From Taeniopygia guttata (Eukaryota; Chordata; Aves; Passeriformes; Estrildidae), in contig NC_133025.1 of the NCBI RefSeq assembly GCF_048771995.1, forward strand, positions 372,001-436,000: a DNA stretch of 64,000 nucleotides, written 5' to 3'. The notes under the pieces are model-generated. The model did not search any database. It saw only the letters and a program-made list of their open reading frames with translations, and had not been told where the DNA came from. The translations under genes were made by a program, and so were the position numbers. Of the stretch, positions 428 through 46,313 are shown piece after piece; position 1 is the stretch's first letter, and every line of letters begins with the position of its first letter.

Positions 428-515
428 AAATTAAATAAATTAATAATAATAGTAACAGTAGCAATAATAATAATAATAATAATAGTTATAATAATAATAG
501 TAATAAACAGTCACA
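428..515. repeat. AT-rich (TAA)n block
   Basis: An imperfect AAT/ATA trinucleotide run, the only AT-rich DNA for several kilobases. On the minus strand, in leptin-transcript sense, it reads ATT-rich and contains TTATTTAAT (430-438), which fits the UUAUUUA(U/A)(U/A) AU-rich element nonamer. A role in mRNA stability is inference. Confidence 0.75.
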
Positions 516-671
516 GCAATGTAGAAAAAGGTGCCGGCAGCAGCTGGAGTCACCCCGGTGCCCGGGGCCGCTCGTGTGTCCCCGCTGAGGTCCCGGTCCT
601 GTCTGTGGGTCCTGACGAGGCCCCGCGGGGGTCCCGGGCTGTCCGTGTGGGCCCGGGGGTCCCGGGGGTCC

Positions 672-1034
672 CTAACACGCGGGGACCCCCTCGAGGCAGG
701 CGGCGACCCCGTCCAGGCAGCGGCGGAGCCGCGCCAGGGCCACCCCGGCCACGGTGTGCGGAGCCTCGGCCAGCGGGGCGGGGGGCGGCGGGCGGGGGTC
801 GCGGGGCGGGGGGCAGCCCAGCAGGGTCTCCAGCAGGGCCAGCAGGCTGCGCAGGTTCTCCAGGTCGTTGGCCACCTGGGCCAGGCGCGGGTCGGGCCCG
901 GGCAGGGCCCCCAGGAGCCGCTGGAAGAGCTGCAGCCGCTGGGCGGCCCAGCCCAGCCCCGGCGGGACCCCCCCCTCCGGGACCCCCTCCGGGACCCCCT
1001 CCAGCCCGCTGAGGCGCAGGGTCAGCGGGAACAG
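672..1034 (-). CDS. LEP: LEP second coding exon
   Basis: The acceptor CCCCCAG is just upstream of 1034. The exon is 363 nt, phase 0, coding residues 49-168 plus TGA at 674-672. It carries helices B-D, NDLENL, C122 and the terminal cysteine. DNA at 964-1002 holds tandem copies of a GGGACCCCCTCC-like 12-mer that code for GVPEGVPEGGVP, where mammals have GLDFIPG. This is a local in-frame expansion in the A-B loop. Confidence 0.92.
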   Translation of the reverse strand: MFPLTLRLSGLEGVPEGVPEGGVPPGLGWAAQRLQLFQRLLGALPGPDPRLAQVANDLENLRSLLALLETLLGCPPPRDPRPPPPAPLAEAPHTVAGVALARLRRCLDGVAACLEGVPAC

Positions 1035-1855
1035 CTGGGGGGCACAGGGGGGGTCAGCGCCGCCGGCCTCCCCGGGGACCCCACCGTGGGGCACAGAGCC
1101 CCCCCAGCATGGCTGTCCCTCCTTGGGGACCCCCAACCCTCGGGGTGCTCCTAGACCCCATCCCTGGGGGTGCAGACCCCTCCAGACCCCATCCCTGGGG
1201 GTGCAGACCCCCAAACCCCTCCAGAGCCCATCCCTGGGGGCGCAGACCCCTCCAGACCCCATCCCTGGGGGCACAGACCCCTCCAGAGCCCATCCCTGGG
1301 GGTGCAGACCCCCAAACCCCGCCAGAGCCCATCCCTGGGGGCACAGACCCCCAGAGCCCATCCCTGGGGGCGCAGACCCCCCAGAGCCCATCCCTGGGGG
1401 CGCAGACCCCCCAGAGCCCATCCCTGGGGGTGCAGACCCCCAAACCCCGCCAGACCAAATCCCTGGGGGTGCAGACCCCCAGACCCCATCCCTGGGGGCC
1501 CCCAAATCTGGGCATGGGATCCCCCCCATGGAAGACGCCCCCGGGGACCCCACCCCACTTTGGAGAACAGGATCCCCCCGTACTGAGGAGCAGCCCCCGA
1601 GTCTGGGGAACGTCCCCCCGGTCTGGGGGTCCCCCCGGTCCCTCCGGGGGTGTCCCGGCTGTGTCCCAGCCCCCCTCCCCGGTGTCCCCGCGGTCCCCGG
1701 GCCGGGGTCACCTGGAGCTGCTGCAGGCGCGTGCTGAGGGTCCGGGTCAGGGCCCGCGCGTCCGCTCGGAGCCCCTCGAGCCGCACGGGGCGACCCCCGC
1801 CCGCCGCCGCCCCCAGGCACAGCAGCCCCCACAGCGACACGCCGGGACACCGCAT
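672..1855 (-). CDS. LEP: Leptin, complete coding region (join of 1712-1855 and 672-1034, minus)
   Basis: Leptin is a secreted four-helix cytokine that signals through the leptin receptor. Two minus-strand exons join in phase 0 to give 168 codons (human 167). Residues 1-21 are a hydrophobic signal peptide (SLWGLLCLGAAAGGG). Helix A contains RALTRTLSTRLQQL, matching the human KTLIKTIVTRINDI pattern. The hallmark NDLENL sits at residues 104-109 inside VANDLENLRSLLALL. The disulfide pair of the family is C122 and the C-terminal C168. The exon 1 end (LQ, then GT) falls at the same place as in mammalian LEP. Synteny with SND1, LRRC4 and MIR129-1 supports orthology. Odd points: extreme GC content, a short tandem expansion after residue 60, and two extra C-terminal cysteines (154, 161). 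Family, splice and synteny evidence agree. Confidence 0.93.
1155..1500. repeat. Minisatellite in the LEP intron
   Basis: About 12 copies of a 22-36 bp unit built on CCATCCCTGGGGGTGCAGAC, some with an inserted CCCAAACCCC. It fills about half of the 677-nt intron 1035-1711. Because it lacks stops, it generates long spurious open frames on both strands. Confidence 0.9.
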
Positions 1856-1865
1856 CCCGCCGCCT
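1712..1865 (-). CDS. LEP: LEP first coding exon (ATG at 1855)
   Basis: The acceptor CCCTCCCAG ends at 1866, then 10 nt of 5'UTR, then ATG at 1855-1853. Residues 1-48 are coded: signal peptide plus helix A. The donor CAG|GTGACC has GT at 1711-1710. An ATG a few bases inside the second transcribed exon also matches the mammalian gene. The upstream in-frame ATG at 1903 lies in the presumed intron and is not used in this model. Confidence 0.9.
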
Positions 1866-2360: not shown

Positions 2361-2889
2361 AGGGGACAGGGTGACAGTGCCACTCACCGGAGCCTCGCAC
2401 GCACTCGCTGCGCCTGGAACGAGACGGGGCCGCTGATGGAGGGACACGGCGACCCCCCAGTGCCACCACCCCACCGGCCGGGCCGGAGAGGGCCCGTGGT
2501 CCCTTGGGTCAGCCCCGGTGTCCCCGCGGGGCCGAGGGACACGGCCGGTGGCGCTGCCACCACCTCGGGGACAGCAGGGGCCGGGGGCACAAGGACAGGG
2601 ACAAGGAGGTGCCCAGACCCCGCGGGGGCTTCGGGGGCCCGGGACAGCGTCCCCACAGCTCTTCTGGGGGTGGGGGACACTGGGGTCCCCCCGCGGCTGC
2701 ACCCGCAGTGACCCCGCGGTGAGGGGACCGGGGGATGTCCCGGGGAGGGGGTCCCGGGGAGGGGGTTGGGGATGTCCCTGAGCAGGGTGTCCCTCTGGGG
2801 GGGCTGGGGTGTCCCTCTGGGGGTTGGGGGTCCCGGTCCGAGGGGTCTGGGGGGGGTCCCGGTCCGGGGGTCTGGAGGGTCGGGCTCAC

Positions 2890-2920
2890 CTGGTGGTCCC
2901 GCGGGTCCCGTCGGTGGCGG
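2890..2920 (-). other. LEP: Probable LEP non-coding first exon
   Basis: On the minus strand a strong donor CCACCAG|GTGAGCC (GT at 2889-2888) lies about 55 nt downstream of a TATAAA. A short first exon ending here would splice to the acceptor ending at 1866, giving a leptin-like arrangement of a short untranslated exon 1 and an ATG at the start of exon 2. The start near 2920 is only estimated from TATA spacing. A weaker alternative donor (CCG|GTGAGTGG) occurs near 2390. Confidence 0.5.
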
Positions 2921-2945
2921 CGGTGGCTCCATCGCGCCGCTCCCG

Positions 2946-2951
2946 TTTATA
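2946..2951 (-). promoter_or_regulatory. TATA box, probable LEP promoter
   Basis: TATAAA on the minus strand in GC-box-rich DNA, 25-30 bp upstream of the expected start of the non-coding exon. Mammalian LEP promoters are also TATA-containing and GC-rich. Function is inferred from position. Confidence 0.55.
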
Positions 2952-4529
2952 GCGCGGGGCCGCTCCCGCCCCGCCGCCCCCCCGCGTGTCCGGGCCGCGT
3001 CCGGCCGGGGGGGCCCGGGGGGGCCGGGATGTCCCGGGGGGAGCCGGGGGAGCCGGGATGCCCCGGGCCGGGGGGGGGCCGGGATGTCCCGGGCCGGGCC
3101 GGGGGGGCCGGGATGTCCCGGAGGGGACCGGGGGACTGGGATGTCCCGGGCCGGGCCGGGGGTCCCGGAGCGGGAGGAGCGCGGGGGGTCCCGGGGCGAG
3201 CTGGGGACACCGGGACGGCCGCGGGGGGGTCCCGGGGACACGCGAGCACTGGGGGGGCCCGGGGGGGTCCCGGCTCCCCACTCCCCCCGCGGTCCCGACC
3301 CCCCGCGCATACGTGCCCAGGTGAGCGCAGCCCCGCGCGTGGCGGTGACACGTCCCCCGCGCGCCGTGACCGCGCACACGCGCCCGTGTCCCCCCGTGCC
3401 CCCCCCGTGTCCCCGTGCCCCCCCTCTGTATCCCCCTTTGTCCCCCCGTGTCCGCGCCCACGCTCCCGTGTCCCCCCGCCGTGTCCCTCATGTCCCCCCA
3501 CGCGTGTCCTGCCAGTCTCCCCCGCGTCCCTCATGTCCCCTCCTCGTCCCCCCGCGTCCCCCCGTCCCCGCGTGGCACTCACACACCCGGCGCAGGATGG
3601 GGACAGAACAGGGACAGCAGCGATGTCCCCGGGGTGTCCCCGGGAGCCCCCAGACCCGTGTCCCCCCCACCCGGGACACCGCCGGGGTGACACGGGGGGA
3701 GGGGGCTCTCTCGGGGGCACGGGCGTCCCCCACACTGTCACTGGGGACAAAAGCGGTTCCTGTCCCCGCCACCCGTCCCTGTCACCCCCCGGCCCGGGGT
3801 GTCCCCAAACTGCGTCCCCGTGGGGTCCCCGGCGGGGCTGTCCCCGCGCTGGTGACGCCGGAGCTGGTGCCACCACGGTGGTGACACTCGGCCAACACTG
3901 CGGTGGCCCTTCCGGGAAGGCGGGCGGTGACACGGGTGACACCAGTGCCCGGCAGCCGCTGGGGACACGCGGAGCGCCCCGCGGCCAGCACGGTGACCTG
4001 GCTGACGTCACGCGTGTCCCCTCCCTCCCAGCGGGCACCCCGCGTGTCCCGGGCCCCGTCCTCTCTGCCAGCACCCCTCGTGTCCCCAGATCTTGTCCCA
4101 GAGCCCTGTCCCCACTGTCACTCGTGTCCCCATCCCTGTCCCCGTCCCCACCGCCGAGCGCCAGCGGGGCTGGCACGGCCACCGGGAGCCCTTCGGCCCC
4201 TCCCGCGGCACTGGGCAGCGATGGGCACCCAAACTGGGAGCACTGGGGACCTGTTGTGCCCCCCCGGCACCCCCAGTGTCACCTCTCCCCAACGCCGGGG
4301 TGTCCCCAGTGTCACCCCCCGGAGGTCCCCGAGCGTGCCAGGAGCAGTGGTGGCCTCGTGGCCCCATTTCTGCTGTCCCCCCTGTCCCCGCTGCCCCCAC
4401 CCTGTCCCCGCTGTCCCCCGGCTGTCCCCCCTGTCCCCACTGTCCCCTGGCTGTCCCCGCTGTCCCCTGGTGTCCCCAAAGCCCCCCACTCACCTGGGGT
4501 CCCCGCGGCCCCGCTGGCTCGCCGCCCCG
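2952..4529. other. GC-rich intergenic DNA between LEP and MIR129-1
   Basis: C-rich low-complexity sequence with recurring GTGTCCCC, CCCGGGAC and GGGGGGCCGGGATGTCCC motifs. No exon or RNA gene is recognised. The many long open frames are stop-poor composition effects. The part next to LEP (2952-3300) may form the distal promoter or CpG island. Confidence 0.6.
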
Positions 4530-4602
4530 CGGATGCTTTTTGGGGTAAGGGCTTCCTGGCTGGGGAGGGACAGCAAGCCCAGACCGCAAAAAGACCCGAG
4601 AG
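4530..4602 (-). ncRNA. MIR129-1: microRNA miR-129-1 precursor
   Basis: On the minus strand, 4593-4573 reads as miR-129-5p (begins CTTTTTGCGGTCTGGGC, 21 nt) without mismatch to the vertebrate sequence as I know it. 4554-4533 reads as the 3p arm, AAGCCCTTACCCCAAAAAG followed by CAT. The arms pair (CTTTTTG with CAAAAAG; GGGCTT with AAGCCC) around an 18-nt loop. The loop resembles the mir-129-1 loop (TGT.CCTC…CAGGAAG) more than mir-129-2. The location between LEP and SND1 in the same orientation as both also matches human MIR129-1. miR-129 is enriched in the nervous system. Confidence 0.95.
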
Positions 4603-11063: not shown

Positions 11064-14000
11064 CTGGGGGGGGGACACGGCGTCACGGGGGCGCCCCGAA
11101 ACCCGGGGGGCGGGCACGGGGCTCACCGCCCCCGCCCCGGGGCTGCCCCCCCGGTTTGGGGTCCCCCCACTCACCCGGGCGCTCTTGGCCGCCTCCTGCG
11201 CGTTCAGGTACTCGGTGATCTGGGGGGACAGGCTGGGGTCACCCCGCGGCCCCTCCCCAAGCTGGGGGGCTCGGGGGGTGTCCCCAGGGCTGGGGTGGGA
11301 CCCCCCCGTCCTTCTGTGGCTCCCACTGCCCACAGGGGGATGGGGGCGGGGTGACCCCCCAGCCCAGCCCCGAGGGGTGACCCGGGGGTCTGGGGGGGCT
11401 GGGCAGCACCAGGGGGTGGGGGGACCCCCAACCCCCTAATGGGGCAGGATTGATCAGCGCCAGCGGTGGTGGGGGGGCACAGGGATCCCCAGAACCCAAC
11501 CTCATCCCCAGCACCCCCAGCACCCCCCAGAACCCAACCCACAGCCCCCCAACAGTTTCCTCTGCCCCTCAAGCACCCGCCTCAGGCCTCCCAAAAACCC
11601 ACCCGACATCCCAGCACCCACCAAGAGCTCCAACCCCTCCAAACCCCCCTGAGCACCCCCCAGCACCCCCAGAACAACCCCTCAACACCCCCAGAACAAC
11701 CCCCCAGCACCCCCAGAACAACCCCCCAAGCCCTTCCCCGCCCCTCCAAGGCCGCCCCTGCCCCCAGCACCCACCACTTTCTGGAACTGCCTCTCCTTGC
11801 GGGGCTCCACCATCACCAGCCCCTCCTTGACCAGCCCCAGCCCCACGTCGCTCTTGGAGTCGGCGAACTGCAGCGTGACGTGGGGACAGCCGGGGCCCAG
11901 GTGCTCCACGTTCAGCAGGCACTGCGTGTTCTGGATGTCCCTCACCACGCTGTCCACGGCGTCCGCCCGCGCCTCCTCCTGCGCCCCGCGCCCGTCAGAC
12001 ACCCGCGGGGACACCCCGGGGGGACACCCCAGGCCCGCGGGGACACCCCGGGCCAGCAGGGACACCCCGAGCCAGCAGAGACATCCAGGGATCCCCCCGA
12101 CCCCAGGGAGCCCCAAACAGGGATCCCCCCAGACCCGAGGGAGCCCCAAACCCTCAGAGATCCCCCGTGGCCTTCAGGGACACCCCAGAGCCCCAAGGAT
12201 CCCCCCCGACCCGGGACCCCCCAGGTGTTTTGGGGACACCCACAGCCCACTGTGGGCTTGGGGCAGCCCTGGGATTGGGGTGTGGGGCGCTGGGGACGGT
12301 GTCATTGGGGGCTGGGGTTACCCTGGTTCAGGACTGGGGTCAGGGCTGGGGTTGGTGCTCGGGGTCAGGAGACACATTGGGGTCCCAGGGTCAATGTTCC
12401 CAACTGGGACCAAGTTTGGGGTTGGGCTCCACAGGTGGGACCGGGGGCTCAGGGCGTGGGTCTGGGGGCCACGCGTGGGACACGGGGTGGAGGTTCGAGG
12501 TCAGGAGCCACCAAGGGGGCTGGGGCCGAGGCGTGGGGCACAGCGGGACCCCCGTACTCACGTCCTGCGGCACCTGGATGAAGGCGAAGGTGTACTCGGT
12601 GGCCTGGGGCGGCAGCACCCGCGGCGAGAACGCCGGGGGCAGCGGGGCCAGGCGGCTGGGGGGCAGCGTCTCCTTCTGCGGGACACCATGGGGACACCAT
12701 GGGGACACCACGGGGAAACCATGGGGACATCATGGGGGACACCATGGGGACACCATAGGGGACACCACAGGGACAGCACGGGGTCACCATGGGGACACCA
12801 CGGGGGACAGCACGGGGACACCATGGGGACACCATGGGGACACCACAGGATGGATGGATGGATGGATGGATGGATGGATGGATGATGGATGGATGGATGG
12901 ATGATGGATGGATGGATGGATGGATGGATGATGGATGGATGGATGGATGGACGGATGGATGGATGATGGATGGATGGATGGATGATGGATGGATGGATGG
13001 ATGGATGATGGATGGATGGATGGATGGATGGATGGATGGATGGATGGATGGATGGATGATGGATGGATGGATGATGGATGGATGGATGATGGATGGATGG
13101 ATGGATGGATGATGGATGGATGATGGATGATGGATGGATGATGGATGGATGGATGATGGATGGATGGATGATGGATGATGGATGGATGATGGATGGATGG
13201 ATGGATGATGGAGGGATGGATGATGGATGGATGGATGGATGATGGATGGATGATGGATGGATGGATGGATGGATGATGGAGGGATGGATGATGGATGGAT
13301 GGATGGATGATGGATGGATGATGGATGGATGGATGATGGATGGATGATGGAGGGATGATGGATGATGGATGATGGATGGATGGATGGATGGATGGATGGA
13401 TGGATGGATGGATGGATGGATGATGGAGGGATGATGGATGATGGATGATGGATGGATGGATGGATGGATGGATGGATGCATGGATGGACGGATCCATGAA
13501 TGCATCCATGGATGTGGGGCTGTTTTCCCCCCCAGATTCCCCAGTGCCACTCACGTTGCCGTAGTCAATGTAGAAAATGTGCACTTTCCCACCCGACTCC
13601 ACCTTCTCCACCCGGGCACGGTACCTGCAGAGTGGGAGGGATTTTGGGGACTTGGTCCTCACCGCGCACCCCACTGCTGCCCTGGCCCAGCCCGTGGGGT
13701 CACCCCATCCCCTCCTCACCATTCCCCGTCGACAAACTTGGCGATGCAGAAGTCGCCACGGCGCGGGACGAAGGAGCCCTCCACAGGCGGGTGGGCGCCC
13801 ACCTCGGCACGCATGTTCTCCATCAGCTTCTCCAGCTGGGCGCCTGCGGGGGCCCGATCCAGGATAGACCCCCAATCCTGTCCCAAACCAACCCCAACCC
13901 CGCTCCTCAGTGTGGCCCCAAATCCCAACAATGACTTCAACAGTAGATCCCAAACCTGCACCTCCACCCTAGACCCTGCCCCAAGACCTTAACCTTTGGA

Positions 14001-17000
14001 CCCCAAACCTGGATCCCAGTCATGGACCCCTACCCTGGTCCCAGAAATAGCCCTGGGGGGTGGAGGGGTGACCTTGGACATGGATTTGGGCCTTACCCAC
14101 CAAGCCCAGATCCTCATGCCACAGATTCAACTTGCCCCACCGCGCCTGGCCTGGGGAGCGCCCCGGGTGCTGGGGGTGCCCAGGTGTCCCCCCGTACCCG
14201 TCTCTACGTCCTGCACATAGAAGTGGAGGTCGTCGGTGATCTCGGTGACGAACACGGGTTTGTAGTTGGCCGTGCGCTCCTTCTCCTCCAGCACCTGCAC
14301 CACCTCCTCCACCGGCGTCTCCTCGTAGTGGGACCACACCTGGGGGGACACGGGGTGGGGACCCCGGACACGCTCCAGGTGACAGCAATGGTAGGATGGG
14401 GGGCTGGACCCGGCAGTGGGAACATACCCAGGCCCCAGCTTGGTGGGTCATGTGCCTTGGGTGGGACATCCCCCAGGTGGGATATCCCTGGGATGGGACA
14501 TTGCTAGGGTGGGACATCCCCCAGGTGGAATATCCCTGGGATGGGACATCCCCCAGGTGGGATATCCCTGGGATGGGACATTGCTAGGATGGGACATCCA
14601 TTGGCTGGGATATCCCTAGGCTGGGACATCTCCTGGCATGGGACCTTCATCTCTTGGGGTGGGGACATCTATCTCCAGGAGTGGGGACATTCCTCAGAGT
14701 GGAACATCCCTTAGGATGGGGACATCCATGGTGGCGGGGCCACCTCTTATGTGGGCAGCCAGCGGGGGTGAACGTTAATTGGGGTTGCAAGATTCCCTGC
14801 AGTGGGGCCATAAGCTCTTGGGGTGGGGACATCCCTTTGCACAGGGACATCTCTTGGGATGGGGACATCCCTCGGCATGGTGCCACCCCTCAGAGTGGGA
14901 ATGTCTCTCAGAGTGGAGACACCTTCTGGAGTGAGGCCACCTCTTGACGCGAGGACATCTTTAGTGGGCACATCTCTCAGGGCGGGGACATCCGGTGTGG
15001 TGGGGCCATCTCCAATGTCTCTGGGGTGGTGACACTGCTGGGGCACCTGACCCCTGACCCCCCTCACCTTCTCCTTCCTCTGCTTGGCCGCGTCCTGGGC
15101 CGCCAGCAGGGCCTTGCAGTAGGGGCTGCGCTCGGCCGTGAAGTGGACGCGGGACAGCGCCTGCTCCACCAGCGCCACCGACAGGTTCACGCCCTCGATG
15201 TGCAGCCACCCGATGAAATTCCCAGCCTTGTCCATGCTCTCCACCTCCACCTCAACCTGTGGGACCCGGGAATCCCATGAGCTGTGGGCCCCTGTCCCCA
15301 CCCCGGCCTGCCCCAAGTGCCATCTCCCAGTGCTCCGAGCTCACCCGGGTGGTGCCCCCCCAGCCTGGACCCCGGGACCCCCGAGGTGCCACCCCTAAGT
15401 GTCCCCTTGTGGTGGGGGACAAGGGACATGCGTGACCCTCCCACGGGGTGCATGAAGCCACCAGGTCCTGCCACATCCTGTATCCCATTCCACCCTGGGA
15501 ATCCCATCCTGGGAATGACACCCCACCCCAGGACAGGTTGGACCTGTGGCCAGTGTGGCCCTGCGGACAGCACGTGGCACAGGACAGGGCTGGGTGTGTG
15601 GCCAAGGGGACAGCGAGGAGGTTTGAGCTCAGGGCTGACAGATGGGCCACACCACCATGGTTCAAACCCCGGCCGTGGCCTTTGTCACCGTCAAGGGGGT
15701 TTGGCTTTGCCAGTGCTGCCACACGGAGCCTGTGCCACCCCTGAGCTCACCCATCCCACAACTGCTCCCGCTGCTTCCCAAAGCCTGGAGGTGTCCCAGT
15801 GTCCTTGCACTACGCTGGCCGTGGCACCATACTGGACATGGCACCGCACTGGACACGGCACCGCACCGGACATGGCACCGCACCGGACATGGCACCGCAC
15901 CGGCCATGGCACCGCAATGGACATGGCACCGCACTGGACACGGCACCGCACCGGACATGGCACCGCACTGGACACGGCACCGCGGTGGACACGGCACCGC
16001 ACTGGACACGGCACCACACTGGACATGGCACTGCAGTGGACACAGCACCGCACTGGACACAGCACCGCACTAGACACAGCACCACACTGGACATGGCACC
16101 ACACTGGACATGGCACCGCACTGGACACGGCACCACACTGGACACGGCACCGCAGTGGACACAGCACCGCACTGGACATGGCACCGCACTGGACACGGCA
16201 CCGCACCGGACATGGCACCGCACCGGACATGGCACCACACCGGCCATGGCACTGCACTTGCCAAGGCCAGTGTGCAGCAAGGACGTGGCCCCAGGCCACC
16301 CGCTGCCCCCGGGGATGCCAGTGCCAGGCTGGTCCCTGGGGGCAGCACCTCGTGCACGGCTGTGGCACCTCCCCAGTGCCGCAGGGTGACACTCTGGGTG
16401 ACAAGGGTGTCCCTGTCCCCCGTGTCACCACTGGGTCACTGGCCAGGGGACACGCAGGACACTGATGGACTCAGGGATGAGATGAGGCCACTGCAGTGAG
16501 CACAGAACATGTGGGACCCACCCGTGGGGCACAGGAGGCCACCAGGTCCTGCAGCTTCTGGTGGGGACATTACTGGAACAGCTGAACCCCCCTGGGGACG
16601 TGCCAGCGTCATGGGGACAGCGACCCTCGTGAGGAAGGACAGGAGGGTCCTGGGGTGCTCTGGAGCACTGCCGGACAGGGTGCCCCAGAGGAGCCACCAG
16701 CCCCACAGAGGTGCCCACCACCCACTGCTGGCACTCAGGTGACAGCTCCAAATGCCACCAGTGCCACCGAGAGCAGGGAAGGCCACGGGGTGCTCATGGG
16801 GGCTGCGGGTGGTGTCATGGCCCCCCCAGTCCCAGGGGGAGGGAGGGGGGACAAGGCACTGCTGGGGGTGCAGAGCTCAGCCTGGGTCCCAAAGAGCAGC
16901 ACCACACCAGGTCCCTGTCCCCTGTGCCCTGTCCCCTGTGCCCAGCCCTGGCACTCACCCCGGCAGGGCTGCTGCTCCCCACCGGTGTCACGGCTTGTGA

Positions 17001-20000
17001 CACACCGGGGCTCAGGGGGGCTCGGACCCGGGGGGACGGAGCCGGGGTCCCCCCGGTCCTCGTCACCTCAAAGCCGCCGAGCCCCGAGCGCTGCCGCCCC
17101 CGGCCCTTCGTCCCTCCCTCCCTCCCTCTGTCCGTCCATCTGTCCGTCTGTCCGTCCGCCTCCCCGGCCCCGAGGAGGGGTCGCTCAGGGAGCGGCCCCC
17201 CCATCCACGAGCCCCGAGCGGGGCTGCGGGGAGGGGGAGGAGGAGGAGGAGGCGGCGGGAGGGAGGGAGGAGGAAGAGGAGGAGGAAGCGGCGCATCCCG
17301 CATCCCCCTCCCCGCGCACGAAACCGCTCCGGGGCCGCCGCACCGGCCGAAGCGGGGCCGGCGGGGGCCCCTCCGGAGAGCGGCGGGTGGGTGGGTGGGT
17401 GGGGGTGCGGGGGGCGCGGGGGGGGCTGTGCGGAGCCGGGATGCGTCAGCAGGAGCAGCGGGAGCGGCGGCAGCAGCAATCCATCCGCGCTCGCACTGAA
17501 GGACAAAAGGATGAGCCAGCCGCCTGCGCGGCTGCTTCCCGCACCGCCCGCACCGCCCCGCACCGCACCGCCCGCACCGCCCGCACCGCCCCGCGCGGCC
17601 CCCGCCACCGGAGGATGCCCGCCGGCACCGCGACCGCCACCGCTGTCACCGCCGCTGTCACCGCCACCATCGCCCCGCGCCGCCGCTGAACGCGACACCC
17701 ACGCGGGGACGCGGGAACGACACGCGGGAGGGGACGGGACGGGACCCCCCCGCCCCGCCACCAGCGCAGCCGCCGCCGCTACCGGGAGGTGCCCCCGCCG
17801 GCATCTCCCCCCCCCCACGCCGACGCCCTTTCCTCCCCCCCGCTCCCTCCCCGAACCGCGTTTTTCCCTCTCCCGGGGGGGGCTCCCCGCGATTTATTTA
17901 TTTATTTCGGCCTATTTTTAATCTTTATTTTCCTGTTTTATTTTTAGGTTTCGTCCGGGTTGTTTGGGGTGTTTTTTTTTTTTTTTAATATTTTGAATTT
18001 TATTTTTAGCTTTTCATCTGATTTTAGCTTCATTTTAACTTTTATCCTCATTTCCGTTCTTATCTTGATTTGATTCTATTTTACATTTTTATTCCGTTTT
18101 TACCTCCTTTTCCAATTCCCTTTCCTGGCCAAATTTTTTTTTTTTTTTTCCCCATTCCCATTTCCCTCCCCGTTTTTCCTTTTTTTTTTTTTTTCCACTT
18201 TTTCTCTCCTCCTCTCCCTCCCCTTTTCCCAATTCTTCCTTTTCTCCCCGCTTCTTTTTTTTTATTATTTCCTTTTTCCCCACTTTCCCCGCGTTCCCCC
18301 CCTCCTTTCCCCGCGGCCTGGGGGGGGGGCGGCCATGCCGGCCCCGCCGAGCCCCCCGGGCCGGCCCCACGGGCGGAGGTGCGAGGCCGCGGGCTTGGCC
18401 GCGGTCGGGGGCTGCCGGGCCCCCGCTTAGCCGGGCCGCCCCCCCCCCCCCATCCTGCACCGCAGCCTCCAGGAGCCATTTTGTCTTTTTTTTTTTTTTT
18501 TTTTTTTTTTTTGGGAGCCGGCCCCCCCTTCCCCCCCCACCCTCCTCGGTCCCGGGCCCCCCGCGCTCGCCTCCAGCCCCCCCGGACCCCCCGATCCCCC
18601 TTCCCCAGGTAGGTACTGGCGAGCGGGGCCGGGCGTGGGGGGGGGTTCCTTCTCCTCCTCTCCCCCCACCCTCCCCCCCCCACCAGCACCTACCGCTGAT
18701 TTTTTCCCCCCTAAATTTTAATTTTTCCCTCCTCAACCCCCGTTCTCCTCGGAGCCCCCCCGACCCCAGCACCCCGACCCCCCCCCCCTCCGGCCAGCCG
18801 GGCCCCCCAGCTCGTGGGAGCCGGGAGAGGGGGGGGCCCGAGCCCGTTCTCCTGTTCTCGCCGCCATCCCCAGACGATGGTGAATGATGAACGTGCCACA
18901 CCATGAAGCTCTTGTGGCAGGTAACTGTGCACCACCTCCGCCGCCACCGCCGCCACCGCACCTGGCCGGGGCTCCTGGCCGCCTCCCTGACCCTCCACGC
19001 GTGGCTCCTGGCCACGGCCGCCGCCTCGCCGGGCCCCCAGAGCTGCCCCTCCGTGTGCTCCTGCAGTAACCAGTTCAGCAAGGTGGTGTGCACCCGCCGC
19101 GGCCTGGCCGAGGTGCCCCCCGGCATCCCCTCCAACACCCGCTATCTCAACCTCATGGAGAACAACATCCAGATGATCCAGGCGGACACGTTCCGCCACC
19201 TGCACCACCTGGAGGTGCTGCAGCTGGGCAGGAACGCCATCCGGCAGATCGAGGTGGGCGCCTTCAACGGCCTGGCCAGCCTCAACACCCTGGAGCTCTT
19301 CGACAACTGGCTGACGGTGATCCCCAGCGGGGCCTTCGAGTACCTGTCCAAGCTGCGGGAGCTGTGGCTGCGCAACAACCCCATCGAGAGCATCCCCAGC
19401 TACGCCTTCAACCGCGTGCCCTCCCTCATGCGCCTCGACCTGGGCGAGCTCAAGAAGCTCGAGTACATCTCCGAGGGCGCCTTCGAGGGCTTGTACAACC
19501 TCAAGTACCTCAACCTGGGGATGTGCAACATTAAGGACATGCCCAACCTGACGCCCTTGGTGGGCCTGGAGGAGCTGGAGATGTCGGGCAACAATTTCCC
19601 CGAGATCAAACCCGGCTCCTTCCACGGGCTCAAATCCCTCAAAAAGCTCTGGATTATGAACTCGCAGATCAACCTGATCGAGCGCAACGCCTTCGACGAC
19701 CTGACGGCGCTGGTGGAGCTCAACCTGGCCCACAACAACCTGTCGTCCCTGCCCCACGACCTGTTCGCCCCGCTGCGCTACCTGGTGGAGCTGCACCTGC
19801 ACCACAACCCCTGGGACTGCGACTGCGACATCCTCTGGCTGTCGTGGTGGCTGCGGGAGTACATCCCCACCAACTCCACCTGCTGCGGCCGCTGCCACGC
19901 CCCGCTGCACATGCGGGGCCGCTTCCTGGTGGAGGTGGACCAGACCTCCTTCCAGTGCTCGGCGCCCTTCATCATGGACGCGCCCGCGGACCTCAACATC

Positions 20001-23000
20001 TCGGAGGGGCGCGTGGCCGAGCTGCGCTGCCGGACGCCCTCCATGTCCTCGGTGCGGTGGCTGCTGCCCAACGGGACGGTGCTGAGCCACGCCTCGAGCC
20101 ACCCGCGCCTGTCCGTGCTCAACGACGGCACCCTCAACTTCTCGCACGTGCTGCTGACCGACACCGGCCTCTACACCTGCATGGTGACCAACGTGGCCGG
20201 CAACTCCAACGCCTCGGCCTTCCTCAACGTCAGCACGGCCGAGCTCAACACCTCCAACTACAGCTTCTTCACCACCGTCACGGTGGAGACCACCGAGATC
20301 TCCCCTGAGGACGTGTCCCCCAAGTTCACCAAGCCCGTGCCCACCACCTCCACGGGCTACCAGCCGGCCTACACCACCACCACCACCGTGCTGGTGCAGA
20401 CCACGCGCCCGCCCAAGCAGGTGGCCGTGCCCACGGCCGACGCCGGCGACAAGCTGCAGACCAGCCTGGACGAGGTGATGAAGACCACCAAGATCATCAT
20501 CGGCTGCTTCGTGGCCGTGACGCTGCTGGCCGCCGCCATGCTCATCGTCTTCTACAAGCTCCGCAAGCGCCACCAGCAGCGCAGCACCGTCACCGCCGCC
20601 CGCACCGTGGAGATCATCCAGGTGGACGAGGACATCGCGCCGGCCGCCGCGGCCACGCCCGCGGCCACCCCGGCCGGCGGGGCTGGGGAGGGGGCCGTGG
20701 TGCTGCCCAACATCCACGAGCACCTCAACTACAACACCTACAAGGCCGGACACGGCGCCCACTGGACAGAGAACGCGCTGGGCAACTCCCTGCACCCCCC
20801 CGGGACCACCCTGGCCGACCCCTATTTAATCCAGACCCACCCCAAGGAGAAAGTTCAGGAAACCCAGATATGACTCTTTTTTGGGGGCTTTTTCCTGATT
20901 TTTTTTGGGTCGTTGTCCCCCCCCCCTTTCAAGCCCGGCCCCAAATTATTATAAACGCAATAGATGCACAAAAGCAGAACTCCAAAAAGAAGGAAACCCA
21001 GGAGAATTCCTCAATACTAAGGAAAACCAGGAGAATTCCTCAATAATAGACACAACTTTTGTACAGGGGGGGGGAGAGACTCTTTTTCGTGTACATGCTT
21101 CTATAGCCAACCTTGGGGCCGAGAAGAGCAGCAGATTCTATTAAAATTTAACGAAACCCACCCGAAACTCCTACAAAAAACCACTATTTTCTAACTCGCA
21201 GGTTCTATTTAAACACAAAAAGAAACAAACCAGGAGAAACAGAGGAGGAAAAAAAAAACAATCGGTAATAAGAGGAAAAATCCCCGTGCTTGGGGACGAG
21301 CGGCGGTGCCGTGGCGCGGGGGGACGCGGGGGACGCCGGAGCGGTGGCAGAAGCTGTCGGGGTGGGGTTTGGGGGGCTCGGGGTGTTTTTGGGGGTTACT
21401 TGAGGGAGGGGGTGAGGTCGGCCCCCCCACCCCGAGGCGCTGCCCTTGGCCGTGCGCCGGCGGCTCCGGCGTCACCGGAGCGGGATCTCGGCCCCGCGCC
21501 AAGACCTTCCCAATGCAATAAAGGAATGGATTTTGGGGGATGGGGGGCTCGGGGGGGCGGGGGGCACAGCCTGGGGGCTGGGGATGGACGTCTGCAATGT
21601 ATTCAAGCAAAAAATTCCTGAAAAACCCACGGGAAGGGGAAAAACCCCGCAAGCGCCCGGGGGGTGGTTTGGGGGGATTTGGGGAGGGGGGGAGAGCGGG
21701 TGCCCCCCGCTTTGCTCTGCACCCCCTTTCCCACGGTGTTTGTCACCCCCCTGGGCCTCCCACACCCCCCGGCACAGGGCTACGGCTCCTGGGGGGCTGG
21801 GGGGGCCCCCACGGGAGACCTGACCAATGATTGTAACCACCTTCACTAAAAACGGCATTTTTTGTCCTTTTATTTGAGTGGGGGGGGCGTGGGGAACCAC
21901 CCCCCCGTCCCCGGGAGGGGGTGACAATGGGGACACCCCCCCCAAGGGCTGCTCACGGATCGGGGGGGGGATGGGAGAAATTAAGGGCTTGGGGAGGGGG
22001 GAAGGCAACAATGGGGGGGCCACCAGCATCGGAGGTGGTGCCGGGGGGGTCCCGGCGGGGACCCCAAGTGCCTCGTGGGGGTCCCGAGGGGATGAGGGGG
22101 TCGGGGGGGTCGGGCAGCAGCGAGAGGAGGGGCCCCCCCGGTTGCTCGGGCGCTGGAATTACTTTAATTTCTCGTTTTAGCTTTAAAATGTTCTCGGAAA
22201 GGGGGGCACAGCTGAGCTAAAATTTCGGGTTTGGGGGTGTCCGGGGGGGGTGGAAGGCGGGAAGGAGATGCAGAAGTTCCCTCTCGGGCTGTAAACGCCG
22301 GAAGGATCCGACTGTACCGCGAATCCAACAAAAAAAAAAACAAGTGTATTTTTGTATTTTAATAAATATTGTTCCAAATTTGTAACGCCGAGTGCCCGAG
22401 GGGTTAAACGGGGGCGCTCGGGGGGGGGGGCGCGGGGGGGCCCCCCCTCCCTGCCAGCCTGAAAGGGGTTTTTTGTCCTCTCAGCAGGAAAAGCTTTGGA
22501 AAAACCGCGGAGGAGCGGGAAAGGAGATGGAGGGAGAGGATGGAGCAGGGGAGGGGTGAGGGGAACTGGAGGTGACACGGGGGTGACAACAAGAGCTGGG
22601 GGGACAAGAATTAGGGGTGACATTGGGGTGACAACAAGAGCTGGGGGGGACAAGAATTACGGGGTGACATTGGGGTGACAACAAGAACTGGGAGGACAAG
22701 AATTAGGGGTAACATTGGGGCAATGAGAATTGGGGGGGACAAGAATTATGGGGTGACATTGGGGTGACAACAAGAACTGGGGGGACAAGAATTAGGGGTG
22801 ACATTGGGGCGATGAGAATTGGGGACAAGAATTATGGGGTGACATTGGGGTGATAAGAACTGGGAGAGGGATAAGAATTAGGGGTGACATTGGGGCGATG
22901 AGAATTTTGGGGGACGAGAATTATGGGGTGACATTGGTGTGATGAGAATTGGGGGGGACAAGAATTAGGGGTGACATTGGGGCGATGAGAATTGCGGGGA

Positions 23001-32000: not shown

Positions 32001-35000
32001 CATCCCAAATACATCCCAAAACACATCTCGAAATACATCCAAAAATCCCAAATACATCCCAAAACACATCCCAAATACATCCCAAAACACATCCCAAATA
32101 CATCCCAAAACACATCCCAAATATATCCCAAAATCCCAAAAATACCCCAAAACACATCCCAAATCCATCCCAAAACACATCTCGGAATACATCCAAAAAT
32201 CCCAAATACATCCCAAAACACATCCCAAATATATCCCAAAATGCATCCCAAATCCATCCCAAAATCCCAAAAATACCCCAAAACACATCCCAAATACATC
32301 TCAAAACACATCTCAAAATACATCAAAAAATCCCAAATCCATCCCAAAATCCCAAAAATATCCCAAAGCACATCTCAAATGCATCTCAAAATGCATCAAA
32401 AAATCCCAAACAGATCCCAGAATAAATCCTAAATATATCCCAAAAGAGATCCCAAATACATCCAAAATTCATCCCTAAACCCGTTCCCAAATCCATCCGA
32501 TACACCCCAAAGCCCTATCCCAAAATCCTATCCCCTCCCCAGGGCAGCTGCCTGGACCAGCAGGGCGGATCCGGCCCCATTTCCCCATTTCCCCCATCCC
32601 TAATGGAGCATCCCGTCACTCCCTTTTCCCGGGATCTCCCCCTCTCCATCCCAGCATCGAAGGGCTCCACAGAAACCCTCAAAAAAATGAATGAATTGAG
32701 GAAAATGCAAGGAGCTCTGCTGGGAGACACGGGGATCCCCAAAAATCCCTCAGGAGAGCCGGGAATCCCGGATTCCCACCACCATTCCAGTGTTGGCTCC
32801 CACCACCTGGTTCCCAGGCTAGGAGGCAACTCCCGGTTTATTTATCCAAGGGAAAAAGGGGAAAACCACCCCCAGCAGCTCCCAAAACCACGGCACGGTG
32901 TGGGTTTTGTCCCGTTTGGTCCCCCGCGGAATTCCCGCGTGATCCTTACTCCGGAGATGTCGGCGACCCTGTGGATGGGCACCTCCTTCTTGCTGTGCAG
33001 CCCCTTCCCGTTCTTGATGGCCCTGGAGAGCAGAGGGAGCGCCGGGAATCGGGAATCAGCTCCTGCCGCAGCTGGAGCTGCCCCGGGCCCCGGGACCATC
33101 CCAGCACGGAACGAGCATTGGGATGGGGAATGCCGCACGCGGAGGGCACCGAACCCACGGAGAACCCGCGATGCTGGAGCTGCTGCCACATCCCTGGATC
33201 CTTCTCCTGGCACAGGGATGCAGGGCTGGGACGTTCCCCTGGGATGCTCCCTCAGGATGAGGCCCCTGAGCTCCCCCTGGACATCCCCTCCTGCCCCGGG
33301 GCCTGGCTGGGGGTTGGGAAAGGCCGGAGTGTGCCAGGATTGTGGCAGAGCCCCTGGTCTGGGATGTGATCCCAGGCTCTCGGGAGGGCTGGGAATGCTG
33401 AATGGATCCCCCAGACTGCTCCGGGCCCTGCACCACAACCTCGTCCTCAATCTCCCATTCCCACTGCTCCTGGCAGCACAACCGCTCTGCCTGCCGCTGG
33501 CACGATCCCGGAGTTGGGATGTGCCAAAGCTCCCAGTGGCACGGATGAGATTGGTGGGAACATCCAGCACTTCCACCTGCGCACATCCAGGCTGAATCCC
33601 AACCTGGAGCAGCTCTGGGGTTCTCCTCCCAGAACATCCAACACCTCCTCCGGGGCACGTTCAGGCTGAATCCCAACCCCGGAGCAGCTCTGGCTCCAGG
33701 AGCCACATCCCAGCCCCACATCTGGCTCCAGGTGCCACATCCCAGCCTTTTATCCCACTCCAGGTGCCACATCCCAGCTCCGCATCTGGCTCCAGGTGCC
33801 ACATCCCAGCCTTGTATCCCACTCCAGGTGCCACATCCCAGCCTTGTATCCCACTCCAGGTGCCACATCCCAGCTCCACATCTGGCTCCAGGTGCCACAT
33901 CCCAGCCTTGTATCCATCTCCAGGTGCCACATCCCAGCTCCACATCCATCTCCAGGTGCCACATCCCAGCCCCACATCCATCTCCAGGTGCCAGATCCCA
34001 GCCCCACATGCCAGTATCCCAGTGCCCCCTCCAGCTCCGAGCTGCTGACGTGCTGCCAGGCTTCCCAAAAGGCACATTCCAGGCGCTGGGAAGGAGCCTC
34101 TGAGCAATCTGCCGGCCGCCCACCGCCCGGGCACGGCGGGGTGGGAGCGGGAGCAGCTTTCTCCGGCTCGATCCGCCTTTTCCCGCGGCAGCCAGTCCTG
34201 CCCGGGAAGGCGCCGCAGCCCCCTCCAAGCTGCTCTCCCGGCTCTCGGCACCGTGCCGGGATCTGCTGCCAAGGAGGAGCCGAGATCCGCCATCCCTGCG
34301 GGCTCAGCCGCCTCCGGAGGCAGCGGGGCCGGGCAGGGAAGGGCGTCCATCGCCACTCCAGGGACATGGGGACACCCGGGGGCTGCCCGTGGACATGGGG
34401 GGCACTGGGATACGGGATCCCCACAGAATCCTCTCCATGGGGAGCTGGGCTGTGCACCTGGATCTCCTGTACACGGCTGGGGACAGACGGACGGCGCAGC
34501 CGGGACGGGACAGAGGGACGCAGGAGGGGACGCAGGGTGTGACAGGGGGACAGGGACAGCACAGGGGACCCCGCACAGCCCCCCCAGTCCCGCGCTCACC
34601 GGGCCTCGGCCGCCAGCAGCTCATCGTAGTGCGCCGAGCGCTGGTCGTCGTCCTGCCGGTAGCGCAGCACCGTGGCCAGGCCCTTGCTGACCAGCGCCTC
34701 CGCAATGTTGCTGCGGGAGCGGGACCGGATCGGGGCGGGAACGGGGGCAGGGAGACCCCAATCCCACCCCAATCCCACCCCAATCCTACCCCATCCCATC
34801 CTATCCCATCCCATCCCACCCCATCCCACCCCACCCCACCCCACCCCATCCCACCCCATCCCATCCCATCCCATCCCATCCCATCCCATCCCATCCCATC
34901 CCATCCCATCCCATCCCATCCCATCCCATCCCATCCCATCCCATCCCATCCCATCCCATCCCATCCCAATCCCATCCCATCCCAAGGGAAGGCCTTGCAG

Positions 35001-38000
35001 TGACACATCCCAGCTCTCTCTCCCAATCCCGGGACCCGAACGGGTGACAGTGGGAGACCCAAACTGGACTCATGCCACAGGGAGAAGCCTCCCAGGAGCA
35101 CCCCAAAAACCTCATCCCAAAAAACCTGACCCCAAAGCTCCCCTCCCGCCCCACCCCAAACCCAGCAGGCTCAGCATTCCCGGCCCAAGGGAGCCTCCTC
35201 CTTGATTTCCCAGCCCCATCACTTATTCCAGGAGCAGGGGTGGGCACTGGTTTGGGAGGGGGGGCACCACCCCCAGGCTCCCCCCCAGACCCGAGGGGTG
35301 ATGGCCCCAGCCCACAGGAATCTCCTTGATTCCACCATCCCACTTTTTTCTGGGAAATAATTGGGGCAGCAGTTTGGGGGGGCTTGGAGAGGGAGACCCC
35401 CCCACCCCCATTTCCACGGGAAGTGGCTGGGAGCAGTGTCTCCCAGTGAACTGGGATTTCTGGGATCAGCACGGGGGGCCTGTGCAAGGCGGGGATGAAT
35501 CCATCACATTCCACTGCCTTAAGCAAATCCATGAATTCTCCTTCGCCAGCACTTCCCTAATTCTCCTCCAGTCACTGCCCCCCCCCCCCCCACTAATTCT
35601 CTCTGTATCCCAAAAAAAGCGCATCTCTCCAGAGGATGGAGGGACTGATCCCCTCCCCATTCCCGGGTGTGCCCCTTCCCGAGTGGGGGGAAGGGCAAAC
35701 CCATCACCGGGAGCCGAAATTAGGTCTCGGAGCAGGGGGAGGGAATCAAAAAATTGGGGATTGGCGAGCGAGGGAATCGCTGCAGCTGGAGCAGCTGCGG
35801 CAGCCTGGGAATGCTGAGCGCCGGGAATGGCACCCCGGGAATGCTCGGGAAGGAGCCGGAGCTGGGGGAGCCCGGGGAAGGGCCAGGGCGGCTCCCAGCG
35901 CTCCCTGAGATTCCCCATCCCCGTTAAATCCCGCTCCTCATCCCGAACACATCCCACACCCCATCCCGGACATCCTGCTCCCCTTCCCAGCTGCATCCTG
36001 GAAAAAAGCATCCCCCGTGTCCCCTCCCTGGGCCACTGGAACGCCCAGATGCTCTGGAGCACTCCCAGCCATGAAATCTGGATGCTTCCCAGTGACAGAA
36101 CACTCCACTGGGCTGGAAATCCCAGGAAAAGCCCAAATTCTTTTGGGGTTCAGAGGTTTGAAGGCTCAGAATTCCCATGGGGACTGATCCTGGCACCCGG
36201 GGAAGGAGGGAGAGGGAGACAGGGATAACAGCTCAAAGAAGGAATTCCAGCCCACAAATTCCAGACCCTGCTCCAGCCTGGCTCCCTGGGAGGCACACCC
36301 CATTCCCACCCCCCAGCAAAGCTCTGGAACTGAGCTGGAGCTGTGGCCTGGAGGGAAGGAGCATCCCCCAGTTAATCCCAGATCCCAGATTAAAGGCTGG
36401 GAATACAACAGGAAAAATCTCCTTAGGCTGGAAAATGCCAATTTGGGAACTTCAAGCCAAAAATGTCAATTTTCCATCTCCTCCTGCATTTCCTTTCCCA
36501 AAGGAAGTTTTGGGGTGGTTTCATCCCACTAGAGCCGGTGCCCAGCAGGGATCGGGATCGGGATCAGGGGTGCCAAACCCATCCCACCCCTCAAACCCCA
36601 AATCATCCCAAACCGCAGCACTCAGCCCCGCCGCCCCCAGGGAAGGGACCCCCACTCCTGCTGGGAATTGCACTGGGATTACGGCACAGGGTGCTCCTGA
36701 AATGTGGTGTCAGGGATTTCTAGGAGCTTTTCTTCCTGAGGATGATGCAGGATGCTTTGGGATGCCACGGAATGGTGCAGGATGCTGTGGAGGACTGTGG
36801 GATGCTCTGGAATTTTAGGGGATGCTCTGGGATGCTGGGGAATGCACTTAGGGCTAGGGATCAGGCCCCAAACCTGGAGGAGGTGGAAGGGAGAAGCGGG
36901 AGGGAGGGATCCCGGGATCCAGGGAGTCACACAAGCAGGGATAGACAGGGATGCATGCAGGGATGCAGGCAGGGATCCAGAAGAGATGCAGGAGATCCAG
37001 GCAGGGATCCAGACAGGGAAACGGGCAGGATGCGGGCAGGGACAGGAGCTGGGAGATGAGCAGGGATGCAGGCAGGGATTGTGCAGGGATCCAGGCAGGG
37101 ATCCAGGCTGGGGGATGAGCAGGGATGCAGCAGGAGAAGCTGGGCTTGTGCTCCAGCCCCCCGGCTCCCAGTGCCCGGAGCTGGGACTGGGGCTGCAGCT
37201 CCTGCTCTGGCTCCCGCCCGGCGCTGCCGTGCCCAGAATTCCAAGCAGGCTCAGCCCAGCCCAGATGCCAGGCGGACACTCCAGGAAGACAAGCCAGGCT
37301 TTATTCCCTGCTCCATCCCAGCCTGGCAAAGGCCTCGGGACACAGACCCTGCTCTGTTCCACCCCCAGCATCCCGGGATGCAGCGCCGGGAATGGCACAG
37401 GCACTGTGGAGCATCCCAGGAATGGCACAGGCACTGTGGAACATCCCGGGAATGGCACAGGCACTGTGGAACATCCCGGGAATGGCACAGGCACTGTGGA
37501 ACATCCCGGGATGCAGCACTGGGAATGGCACAGGCACTGTGGAACATCCCGGGAATGGCACAGGCACTGTGGAACATCCCGGGAATGGCACAGGCTCTAT
37601 GGAACATCCCGGGAATGGCACAGGCACTGTGGAACATCCTGGAATGGCACAGGCTCTGTGGAACATCCCAGGAATGGCACAGGCACTGAGGAACATCCCG
37701 GGATGCAGCACCGGGAATGTCACAGGTGCTGTGGAACATCCTGGAATGGCACAGGGACTGTGGAACATCCCGGGAATGCAGGGGCAGCTCTCCCAGCCCT
37801 GGGATTAGGGAGCAGGAGAAGGCAGCTCTCCCAGATTTTGCAGGGAAGGGAAGGAAGGGAAGGAAGGGAAGGAAGGGAGGTACAGCTCTTGCAGCCCCTG
37901 GATCAGGGAGGGAAAGGCAGCGCTGCAGCGCTTTGGGTGCTTTCCAAAATAGCTGCTACCGGGAAAAAAAACTGGGAAAGCAACCAAGGGCCTATGACAA

Positions 38001-41000
38001 ATCCTCCCTACGCAGCTCCCGGAGCCGCTGCCAGCCAGAGGCTCGGCCTATCCACAGGGATGTGCCAGAGGCACCGGCACCTCATGCTCCGAGGGGAAAA
38101 ACCACAAATTCTGGCTGACGGGAAGCTGCTCTGGAACACTCCCCGCTCCTTCTGAACCTTCTCGTGGAGAAGGGAAATCAGGGAGGGGTCCCTTGGGAAG
38201 GACAAACATCCCGGGATACACAGCAGGGATTACTGCTCCAACGCCACCCCTGGGGCAGCCAGACTGGGGGAGCCTGATCCCGATATCCCCCAAAACTGAT
38301 GCAGCTGCAGGGGGGCCGGTGTGGGGGTCCAAACAGCACATCCCAATGAATCCCACAGAATCCCAGCGCTGGGATGTCGGGAACGGGGCTGACCCCAGGC
38401 CACGTGGGCAGCGAGCCGCCCCCCAACCCACAGAGCCCCGGCAAGGTGCGAGTTCCAGGGGGAGCCCCAGTCCCCAGTCCCGGGTGACTCACATTCCGCC
38501 GATGGAGACGGTGGCACAGGTGCGCTCCGAGAAGGCCGGGACGGTGTCGGTGGCGCTGCTGGCGGGGCGGATGTAATCCACGGAAACGTTCACCTGGAAT
38601 AGGGAATGGCTCAGTGACCCATCCCATCCCCATCCCATTCCCAGAGATTCCCAGGTGTCCCCAGAGATCCGTGGGGATCCCGAGGTGCGGCGGCACCGGC
38701 ATTCCCGGTTTATGGACGCGACATTCCCGGCAGGACAGGGGCACGGGAGCGGCGCTGCCTGCCCCGGCGGGGCTGTGCCACTGTGCCAGGCTGCTCCAGC
38801 CCCAGTGTCCAGCCTGGCCTTGGGCATTCCAGGGATCCAGGGGCAGCCCCAGCTGCTCTGGCAATCCCAGCCCAACCAGGAATTCCTCATTCCCAATCTC
38901 CCATCCATCCCTCTGGCAGTGGGGAGCCATTCCCTGTGTCCTGTCCCTGCAGGCCTTGTCCCCAGTCCCTCTGAGCTCTCCTGGAGCCCCTTCAGTCCCT
39001 GGAAGGTCTCTCTGGACCCTTCCCTCCTCCAGGCATCCCTCCCCAGCAGTTCCCAGCGTCACATCCCACAGCTGCAGGTGCCATTTCCATGAAAATTCCA
39101 CTCAGTCCCACGTCTCTGCTTCCCCAGGGAAGCTCCATCCTCGATGCTTTCCTGGTATCAGGAAATAGCTGGAATACCCCGAGGCTCTGGGGTGACACAG
39201 GGGTGACATGGGGGCGATGTGGGGATCTCTGGGGACATCCCAGTGCTGCGGCCTCAGGGCTGGACTTGGCCCCTCTGGACTTTTCCCACTCCCGTTCCCG
39301 TTCCTGCTCCCGTTCCGCATGGCCGGAGCCGCGCTGAGCCAAAGGCAGCCAGGCAGGCGAGGCAGGAGCATCCCTGAGCCCCTGCAAAGCCTCAGCTCAT
39401 CCCGAAAATCACTCATTAAACCAACATCAACATGCAAAAAGGGTCGGAGCTCTGGCAGGGCGCCGGAGCCGCGGCTGTTCCGTGCGGAGAGGGGCTCCGG
39501 CAGGGAAGAGCCAATTAAGGGGAGCGGTTACAGCGATTCCCCGCAGCAAAGCTCCCGTCGGAACCACTGGAGGGGAAAAAGAGACGCCGATTACTCCGAG
39601 AGGCAGGTTGGGAATTCAGCTGCTCCAGGGCTTCCGAGATGTCTGGCTCAGGAGCGGCCGGCGTGGGAAACACCTGGCTCGGGATGCGGCACCGGGAACG
39701 GGAACGGCGGCGGCGGAGCAGCCGGGAGGGACAGGGGATCCCGGGGCTCGGGGATGGATCTGGGAGGAGTCAGGAGAGACTGGGATGGGATGGGATGGGA
39801 TGGGATGGGATGGGATGGGATGGGATGGGATGGGATGGGATGGGATCCATCGGATGGGGTGGGATGGGATCCATGGGATGGGATCCATGGGATGGGATCC
39901 ACGGGATGGGGTCGCCCCTCAACAGGAAAGCCCTGCATTGTGTCCCGCTGTATCCCACTGCATGGGATGTGCCCAGGGGCAGGAGTGCTCCGCAGAGGGA
40001 TCTGGACAGGTCGGATCTGTGGGATGCGGTTCCACAAGGCCAAGCGGAGCCCTGGCCCAGGGTGTGGCTGCCACTGGATTCCCAGAAGTGCTCAGGGCCA
40101 GGCTGGACACGGCTTGGAGCCATTGGGAGAGGGGCAGGTGTCCCTGCCATGGCAGGGCTGGAACCATTCCACGATTCCATGAAGTGCCATGTCCCCCCTT
40201 GGATCACACCAACCAACACGGAACACTCCAGACACGGAAAGCTGGGAAAGGCCCTGGGGTGCCGCTCAGCTGGAGGGACCCGGAGCTGCCGGGACAACGC
40301 CCGGGATCATCTGAGGCCAGGCCGGGCTCCGTGGGACACCAGACATGGCAGTGGCACCCCCACCACAGCTCCGGCACCGCGGAGCATTCCCGGGATCCAA
40401 GGGCGGCGTGCCCGTGGCGGGGCTGGGAAGGGCTGGGCTCGCAGGGACCCCCCGGCACCCCGGGGCTCTGCTCCCCCGGAGCAGCCGGGGCCGCGCCTGG
40501 GCGGCTTTCCAAGGTCAGCTGCAGTCAGGGTGGATTAAATCACTCCGGCAGCTCCGCTCCCGGGAGCGCATCCAGCCCGGAACGGCGGCACCGCACGGGC
40601 TCTGAGCGGCCACCGCCGCCAATGTCACCCACGGGGACCCGGCACCCACGGGGACCCGGCACCCATGGGGACCCGGCACCCCATGGGGACCCTGCACCCC
40701 ATAGAGACCCTGCACCCACGGGGACCCTGCACCCACAGGGACCCTGCACCCCATAGAGACCCTGCACCCCATAGAGACCCTGCACCCACGGGGAGCCTGC
40801 ACCCACAGGGACCCTGCATCCCACAGAGACCCTGCACCCACGGGGACCCGGCACCCACGGGGACCCTGCACCCACGGGGACCTGGCACCCACGGGGACCC
40901 TGCACCCCATAGAGACCCTGCACCCCATAGAGACCTGGCACCCACGGGGACCCGGCACCCACAGGGACCCTGCACCTCATAGAGACCCTGCACCCACGGG

Positions 41001-46017: not shown

Positions 46018-46313
46018 CTGCCCGGAGAGGGGACTCAGGTCAGGGCATTCCCAAATCTGCCCCATTGCCCCCACCCAATTCCACATCCCAGTTCTGAACC
46101 CCAAGGGGACCTTGGGATGATCCCGAGGAGGAGGCGCCAGGTCCGGCATCCCTGAGCGGCAGCTCCGGGAGGGAACGGGACAACGGGAATTTGGGGTGGG
46201 GGTGACCAGGGTGACCCCCGGGGTGTCCGGCCCCTGTCCAAGGGCATCTCCTGGAGTCACGTCCCTGCAAGGGCTGAGCAAAAGGGGGAGACTCCCAACA
46301 GAAACGGGGATTT

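Follow-up and report, generated by a model that had tools for sequence, protein, structure and literature searches.

A complete, undamaged leptin gene at its usual chromosomal position in a 64,000-nucleotide stretch of DNA

The window (the whole stretch of DNA that was analysed, 64,000 nucleotides) contains an undamaged, complete leptin (LEP) gene at its usual chromosomal position. We put at roughly 95% the probability that this locus is the orthologue of vertebrate leptin, undamaged, the sole copy in the window and very probably neoavian. The coding span (672–1855, minus strand) encodes 168 residues and closes with a TAG stop, with neither internal stops nor frameshifts, and is divided as follows:

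1712–1865, minus strand: LEP exon 2 (acceptor CCCTCCCAG/AGGCGG, donor CAG/GTGACC)
1035–1711, minus strand: LEP coding intron (677 bp, GT-AG, phase 0, after codon 48)
672–1034, minus strand: LEP exon 3 coding sequence (363 nt including TAG; 120 codons and the stop)

The ATG sits at 1855, ten bases inside the exon start at 1865, and the coding part of exon 2 (1855–1712, 144 nt) supplies 48 codons that specify a putative signal peptide and helix A; exon 3 covers the AB loop and helices B, C, and D. The intron is bordered by CAG/GTGACC at the donor and CCCCAG/CTG at the acceptor, and its position and phase are those of mammalian leptin, as in the human gene. The intact two-exon, 168-codon frame of the original prediction is thereby borne out (GT-AG borders, phase 0, no internal stop).

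The DNA is also as GC-rich as had been claimed: exon 2 is 79% GC and exon 3 80%, with 86, 57, and 97% GC at codon positions 1, 2, and 3 (GC3 = 97%). In exon 3, the spread of GC among the three codon phases reaches 0.43, above all 267 comparison windows (maximum 0.397; windows of equal length, plus strand, from the first 18 kb, with starts at 301–1899 excluded), and three-base periodicity of this sort marks coding DNA. The corresponding value for exon 2 (0.312) is unremarkable, being reached by 14 of the 267 windows of its length, because that exon is too short.

Comparison of the joined 168-residue protein with Pfam identifies the Leptin family (PF02024; 63.2 bits against a cut-off of 25, E 3e-17), with protein residues 28–168 aligning to positions 4–145 of the 145-position profile; exon 3 alone gives E 2.5e-13, and exon 2 alone retrieves no Pfam family. 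A sequence search of the PDB with the joined protein returns 12 matches at E ≤ 1, 11 of them leptin chains (E 1.8e-09 to 8.1e-05) and the twelfth an unrelated chain (E 0.61). Against mouse leptin, 48 of 137 aligned residues are identical (35%), and the alignment scores 135 where 500 composition shuffles average 10.6 and peak at 34 (z 25.6); the NDLENL(R) motif of helix C, which had been singled out from the sequence, coincides with that of mouse leptin. The original prediction had set a best match to some other family as the test of its naming, and both the profile and the PDB searches give leptin as the top family, not another. The low identity to mouse, together with a composition rich in L, A, P, G, and R, might point to a different class-I helical cytokine that merely resembles leptin, a reading that we regard as close to refuted: no other Pfam family appears at E ≤ 1, no other cytokine is found among the 12 PDB matches at that threshold, and the gene occupies the LEP position adjoining mir-129 and SND1.

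None of the eight alternative-frame ORFs overlapping LEP matches the Pfam Leptin profile. One of the eight gives sub-cut-off matches to ODV-E18 (E 0.09) and Baculo_11_kDa (E 0.62), which are taken as chance products of its low-complexity start. The frame at 1151–1921, which likewise retrieves no Pfam family, is leptin's own exon-2 frame extended into the intron and is not an alternative-frame control. No second leptin copy is found in the window by tblastn, which recovers the two exons and, as next best, a match of E 0.18.

Residues 1–21 show a hydrophobic core by eye and correspond by length to the mammalian signal peptide. The mature part of the protein carries four cysteines (122, 154, 161, and 168), whereas mature mouse leptin has two, with which C122 and C168 align; their putative disulfide we take to be equivalent to human C96–C146. 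The cysteine pair that had been reported is therefore present and correctly placed, but as an account of the mature protein it was incomplete. Residues C154, C161, and C168 recur at seven-residue intervals along helix D (i, i+7, i+14), an arrangement that would bring all three onto one helix face, with C154 and C161 too distant to bond to each other within an intact helix; for that reason, they might instead bond between molecules. It is improbable that such intermolecular disulfides yield a covalent dimer or a leptin that is retained locally, though this, if true, would be in keeping with the autocrine or paracrine action suggested in birds. The two extra cysteines are the one feature deserving a comparative look. 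A limited search of article text turned up no description of an avian leptin with four cysteines in its mature part, and we do not read this as evidence of novelty. An AlphaFold model of exon 3 alone, computed with no alignment, is weak (pLDDT 56.2, pTM 0.36) and shows three helices (fragment residues 26–42, 49–72, and 95–115) that follow one another as B, C, and D should.

Repetitive DNA occurs in both exon 3 and the intron. A tandem repeat at 1148–1499 fills about half of the coding intron, and G-quadruplex-type motifs lie on the coding strand, 12 (non-overlapping) within the intron and one within each coding exon; repeats and motifs of this type are a published feature of the gene (PMC6792250). 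Within exon 3, 12-bp tandem units at 971–1002 end in a run of eight G, and assembly errors are possible there. These units, the repeat-bearing intron, and the description of leptin-gene DNA as sequencing-refractory (PMC6792250) together lend some weight to the idea of a real gene in which certain residues, mainly in the GC repeats of the AB and CD loops, have been distorted by assembly or base-calling. We consider such distortion unlikely, as the frame that aligns with leptin is the same before and after these repeats, which means that a net error, if present, could only be a multiple of three.

The undamaged leptin orthologue lies among its usual neighbors:

4530–4599, minus strand: mir-129 precursor (MIR129-1; Rfam RF00486, 81.6 bits, gathering threshold 48.6)
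12787–13968, minus strand: open frame with an SND1 exon (2o4x_B residues 42–65, E 5.7e-06)
14130–14447, minus strand: open frame with an SND1 exon (3bdl residues 329–387)
14750–15340, minus strand: open frame with an SND1 exon (3bdl residues 275–341)
18903–20870, plus strand: LRRC4 (intact single ORF of 656 codons; phmmer match 3zyi_A LRRC4, E 8.5e-273)
32845–33660, minus strand: open frame with an upstream SND1 exon (3bdl residues 164–192)
34599–35069, minus strand: open frame with an upstream SND1 exon (3bdl residues 130–167)
45883–46806, minus strand: open frame with an upstream SND1 exon (3bdl residues 58–98)

At the gathering threshold, the window gives a hit to a single Rfam family, mir-129; the precursor contains the mature miR-129-5p sequence, and LEP lies within ~1.6 kb of it. 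The next best phmmer matches of the LRRC4 frame are LRRC4B and LRRC4C. All six minus-strand frames searched for SND1 (chosen by eye among 60 open frames) match it, and the stretch aligned to 2o4x_B residues 42–65 we take to belong to the Tudor domain. The residue order of SND1 runs with falling coordinates and is colinear on either side of LRRC4, which places LRRC4 within an SND1 intron on the opposite strand. The human locus has the same SND1/LRRC4 order and orientation and is less compact than the one described here. All three neighbors that the original prediction had listed (MIR129-1, SND1, and LRRC4) are accordingly confirmed, and in falcon SND1, LRRC4, and mir-129 are reported as syntenic with leptin (PMC3963946). 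RBM28 is the published tail-to-tail 3′ neighbor of leptin (PMC5550943); it did not turn up here, and its position would fall beyond the first base of the window.

Several simple repeats were recorded along the same DNA. A 646-bp GGAT tetranucleotide array (12848–13493) ends ~60 bp from the match to an SND1 exon; long minisatellites occupy 40626–41552 (70-bp unit × 13.3, 83% match), 47149–48015 (58-bp unit × 14.9, 91% match), and 56392–57085 (63-bp unit × 11.1, 94% match); and the minus strand at 59783–60139 holds a 119-codon simple-repeat ORF made mostly of Met-Glu dipeptide repeats.

That this leptin belongs to a bird, as had been asserted alongside its name, we infer from a GC content, intron size, and splice type like those of published neoavian leptins; the name itself stands on the searches above. 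Avian LEP is reported at 74 ± 2% GC and that of non-avian vertebrates at 52 ± 3% (PMC5550943). In one survey, most neoavian leptin introns are described as 400–700 bp and GT-AG, with direct repeats, and with exceptions in the cormorant (atypical splice site) and the budgerigar (900-bp intron), while ostrich, tinamou, kiwi, muscovy duck, and red junglefowl have introns of 800–1500 bp with GC-AG borders (PMC6792250). The exons at 79–80% GC, the 677-bp GT-AG intron, and the tandem repeats at 1148–1499 all follow the neoavian pattern; by analogy with these published genes, the intron fits the neoavian group, within a two-group split that is not itself clean. A leptin gene from a non-avian sauropsid is very unlikely, given exon GC so far above the 52 ± 3% reported for non-avian leptins (PMC5550943), the repetitive 677-bp intron, and the short distance (~1.6 kb) to mir-129.

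Upstream and downstream of the coding exons, we could propose the remaining parts of a transcription unit:

2946–2951, minus strand: TATA box (TATAAA, found by sequence), candidate LEP core promoter
2890–2921, minus strand: putative noncoding exon 1 (donor CCAG/GTGAGC; start set from TATA spacing)
2388–2413, minus strand: putative 26-nt noncoding exon 1b (TTCCAG/exon/GTGAGT)
430–671, minus strand: probable LEP 3′ UTR (TTTAAA variant at 430)

The TATAAA at 2951–2946 is the only one on either strand between positions 1 and 6000 of the window, and it stands in surroundings of 82% GC (2700–3200). Spacing of ~30 nt from the TATA box would set the start site near 2921, and the predicted 68-nt leader that begins there contains no ATG. 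Mammalian leptin is TATA-driven and has a short noncoding exon 1. The two noncoding exons proposed here are predictions, chosen by eye from splice signals; they fit the transcript structure of the rock dove, in which an RNA-seq read is reported to place two exons without coding sequence ahead of the first coding one (PMC4094774). At the 3′ end, a scan of the LEP strand over the 671 bases to the window start for 13 forms of poly(A) signal found TTTAAA (430) only, and no AATAAA. The segment 430–507 is an AT-rich, TAA-type microsatellite, carrying on the plus strand two copies of AATAAA (434 and 502) and one ATTAAA (430); these plus-strand motifs could provide the poly(A) signal for a tail-to-tail RBM28.

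A second long frame overlaps the gene. The +2 frame is open across the entire LEP coding sequence and, read from an ATG at 2932 through the predicted exons, extends to 235 residues (2932–550, minus strand). We rejected it as a product: shuffling codon order keeps the frame open in 63.7% of 1000 trials, as its openness is expected at this GC, and the ATG at 2932 lies ~20 nt past the TATA box, upstream of the expected start site. The piece of this frame at 550–1053 (minus strand) has no Pfam match.

Taken with published work on other birds, the locus suggests how leptin could operate here. The TATA promoter near 2946 would give rise to a transcript of two short noncoding and two coding exons, and its product would be a secreted four-helix class-I cytokine closed by a putative C122–C168 disulfide. 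By analogy with established leptin biology, this product would be a LEPR ligand that signals through JAK2-STAT3; activation of JAK-STAT has been reported for falcon leptin (PMC3963946), and binding to chicken LEPR for chicken leptin (PMC10700341). The product may act chiefly as a local (autocrine or paracrine) factor of brain and pituitary rather than as a fat-store signal, if the sites of expression follow those of published birds: zebra finch leptin expression is reported in brain and pituitary (PMC9206435), and bird leptin generally is described as expressed mainly there, where autocrine or paracrine action has been suggested (PMC5385356, PMC9206435). The absence of leptin from bird fat is itself disputed, because leptin mRNA has been reported in chicken fat tissue using an engineered reverse transcriptase (PMC6792250).

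The same literature bears on whether a gene intact on paper might be non-functional in its lineage, as a young pseudogene or a silenced gene. Bird leptin is described as hardly expressed in fat, its adipostat role lost (PMC11919490, PMC5385356), and in the gene at hand the AB and CD loops are proline-/glycine-rich and diverged, with no canonical poly(A) signal seen. We nevertheless judge inactivation highly improbable: 168 codons persist without stop or frameshift, the splice sites are canonical, helix C with NDLENLR, both conserved cysteines, and a TATA box are in place, and the period-3 signal of exon 3 exceeds that of every one of the 267 comparison windows. Avian leptins are reported to differ widely from bird to bird (about 45% similarity, PMC9206435), and falcon leptin is reported as active (PMC3963946).

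The undamaged leptin orthologue is a complete new example of a known gene and represents nothing new in kind. Published work already covers leptin in birds, together with its GC richness, its synteny, the many repeats of its intron, and its brain-biased expression (PMC4094774, PMC3963946, PMC6792250, PMC5550943, PMC9206435), and the value first attached to an undamaged copy was overstated, as avian leptins with complete coding sequences have been in print since 2014 (PMC4094774). A single stretch that holds the full locus (candidate promoter, both candidate noncoding exons, intron, and the neighbors of one side) is useful because avian LEP assemblies were long fragmentary. A 2025 abstract states that birds lost leptin, where its own text has leptin losing its regulatory function (PMC11919490); the locus supports the published view of a bird gene retained with a changed role and settles no open question alone.

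Compared with known systems, the gene stands closest to neoavian leptins (zebra finch, ground tit, falcons, rock dove, budgerigar, eagles, and flycatcher), sharing their two coding exons and very high GC; as reported for rock dove, exon 2 encodes 48 amino acids (PMC4094774), and the product, at 168 residues, compares with 166 in falcon and 161 in ground tit (PMC4094774, PMC6792250, PMC3963946). With red junglefowl, muscovy duck, ostrich, tinamou, and kiwi, it has in common a GC-rich LEP, chicken LEP being placed in the same synteny block (PMC5550943), and it departs from these five in its intron (677 bp, GT-AG, against 800–1500 bp, GC-AG; PMC6792250). Relative to mammalian leptin (mouse 8avc, human 1ax8), it retains the sequence family, NDLENLR, and the terminal disulfide cysteines, and differs from the mouse protein in its 35% identity, its four mature cysteines against two, and its proline-rich CD loop.
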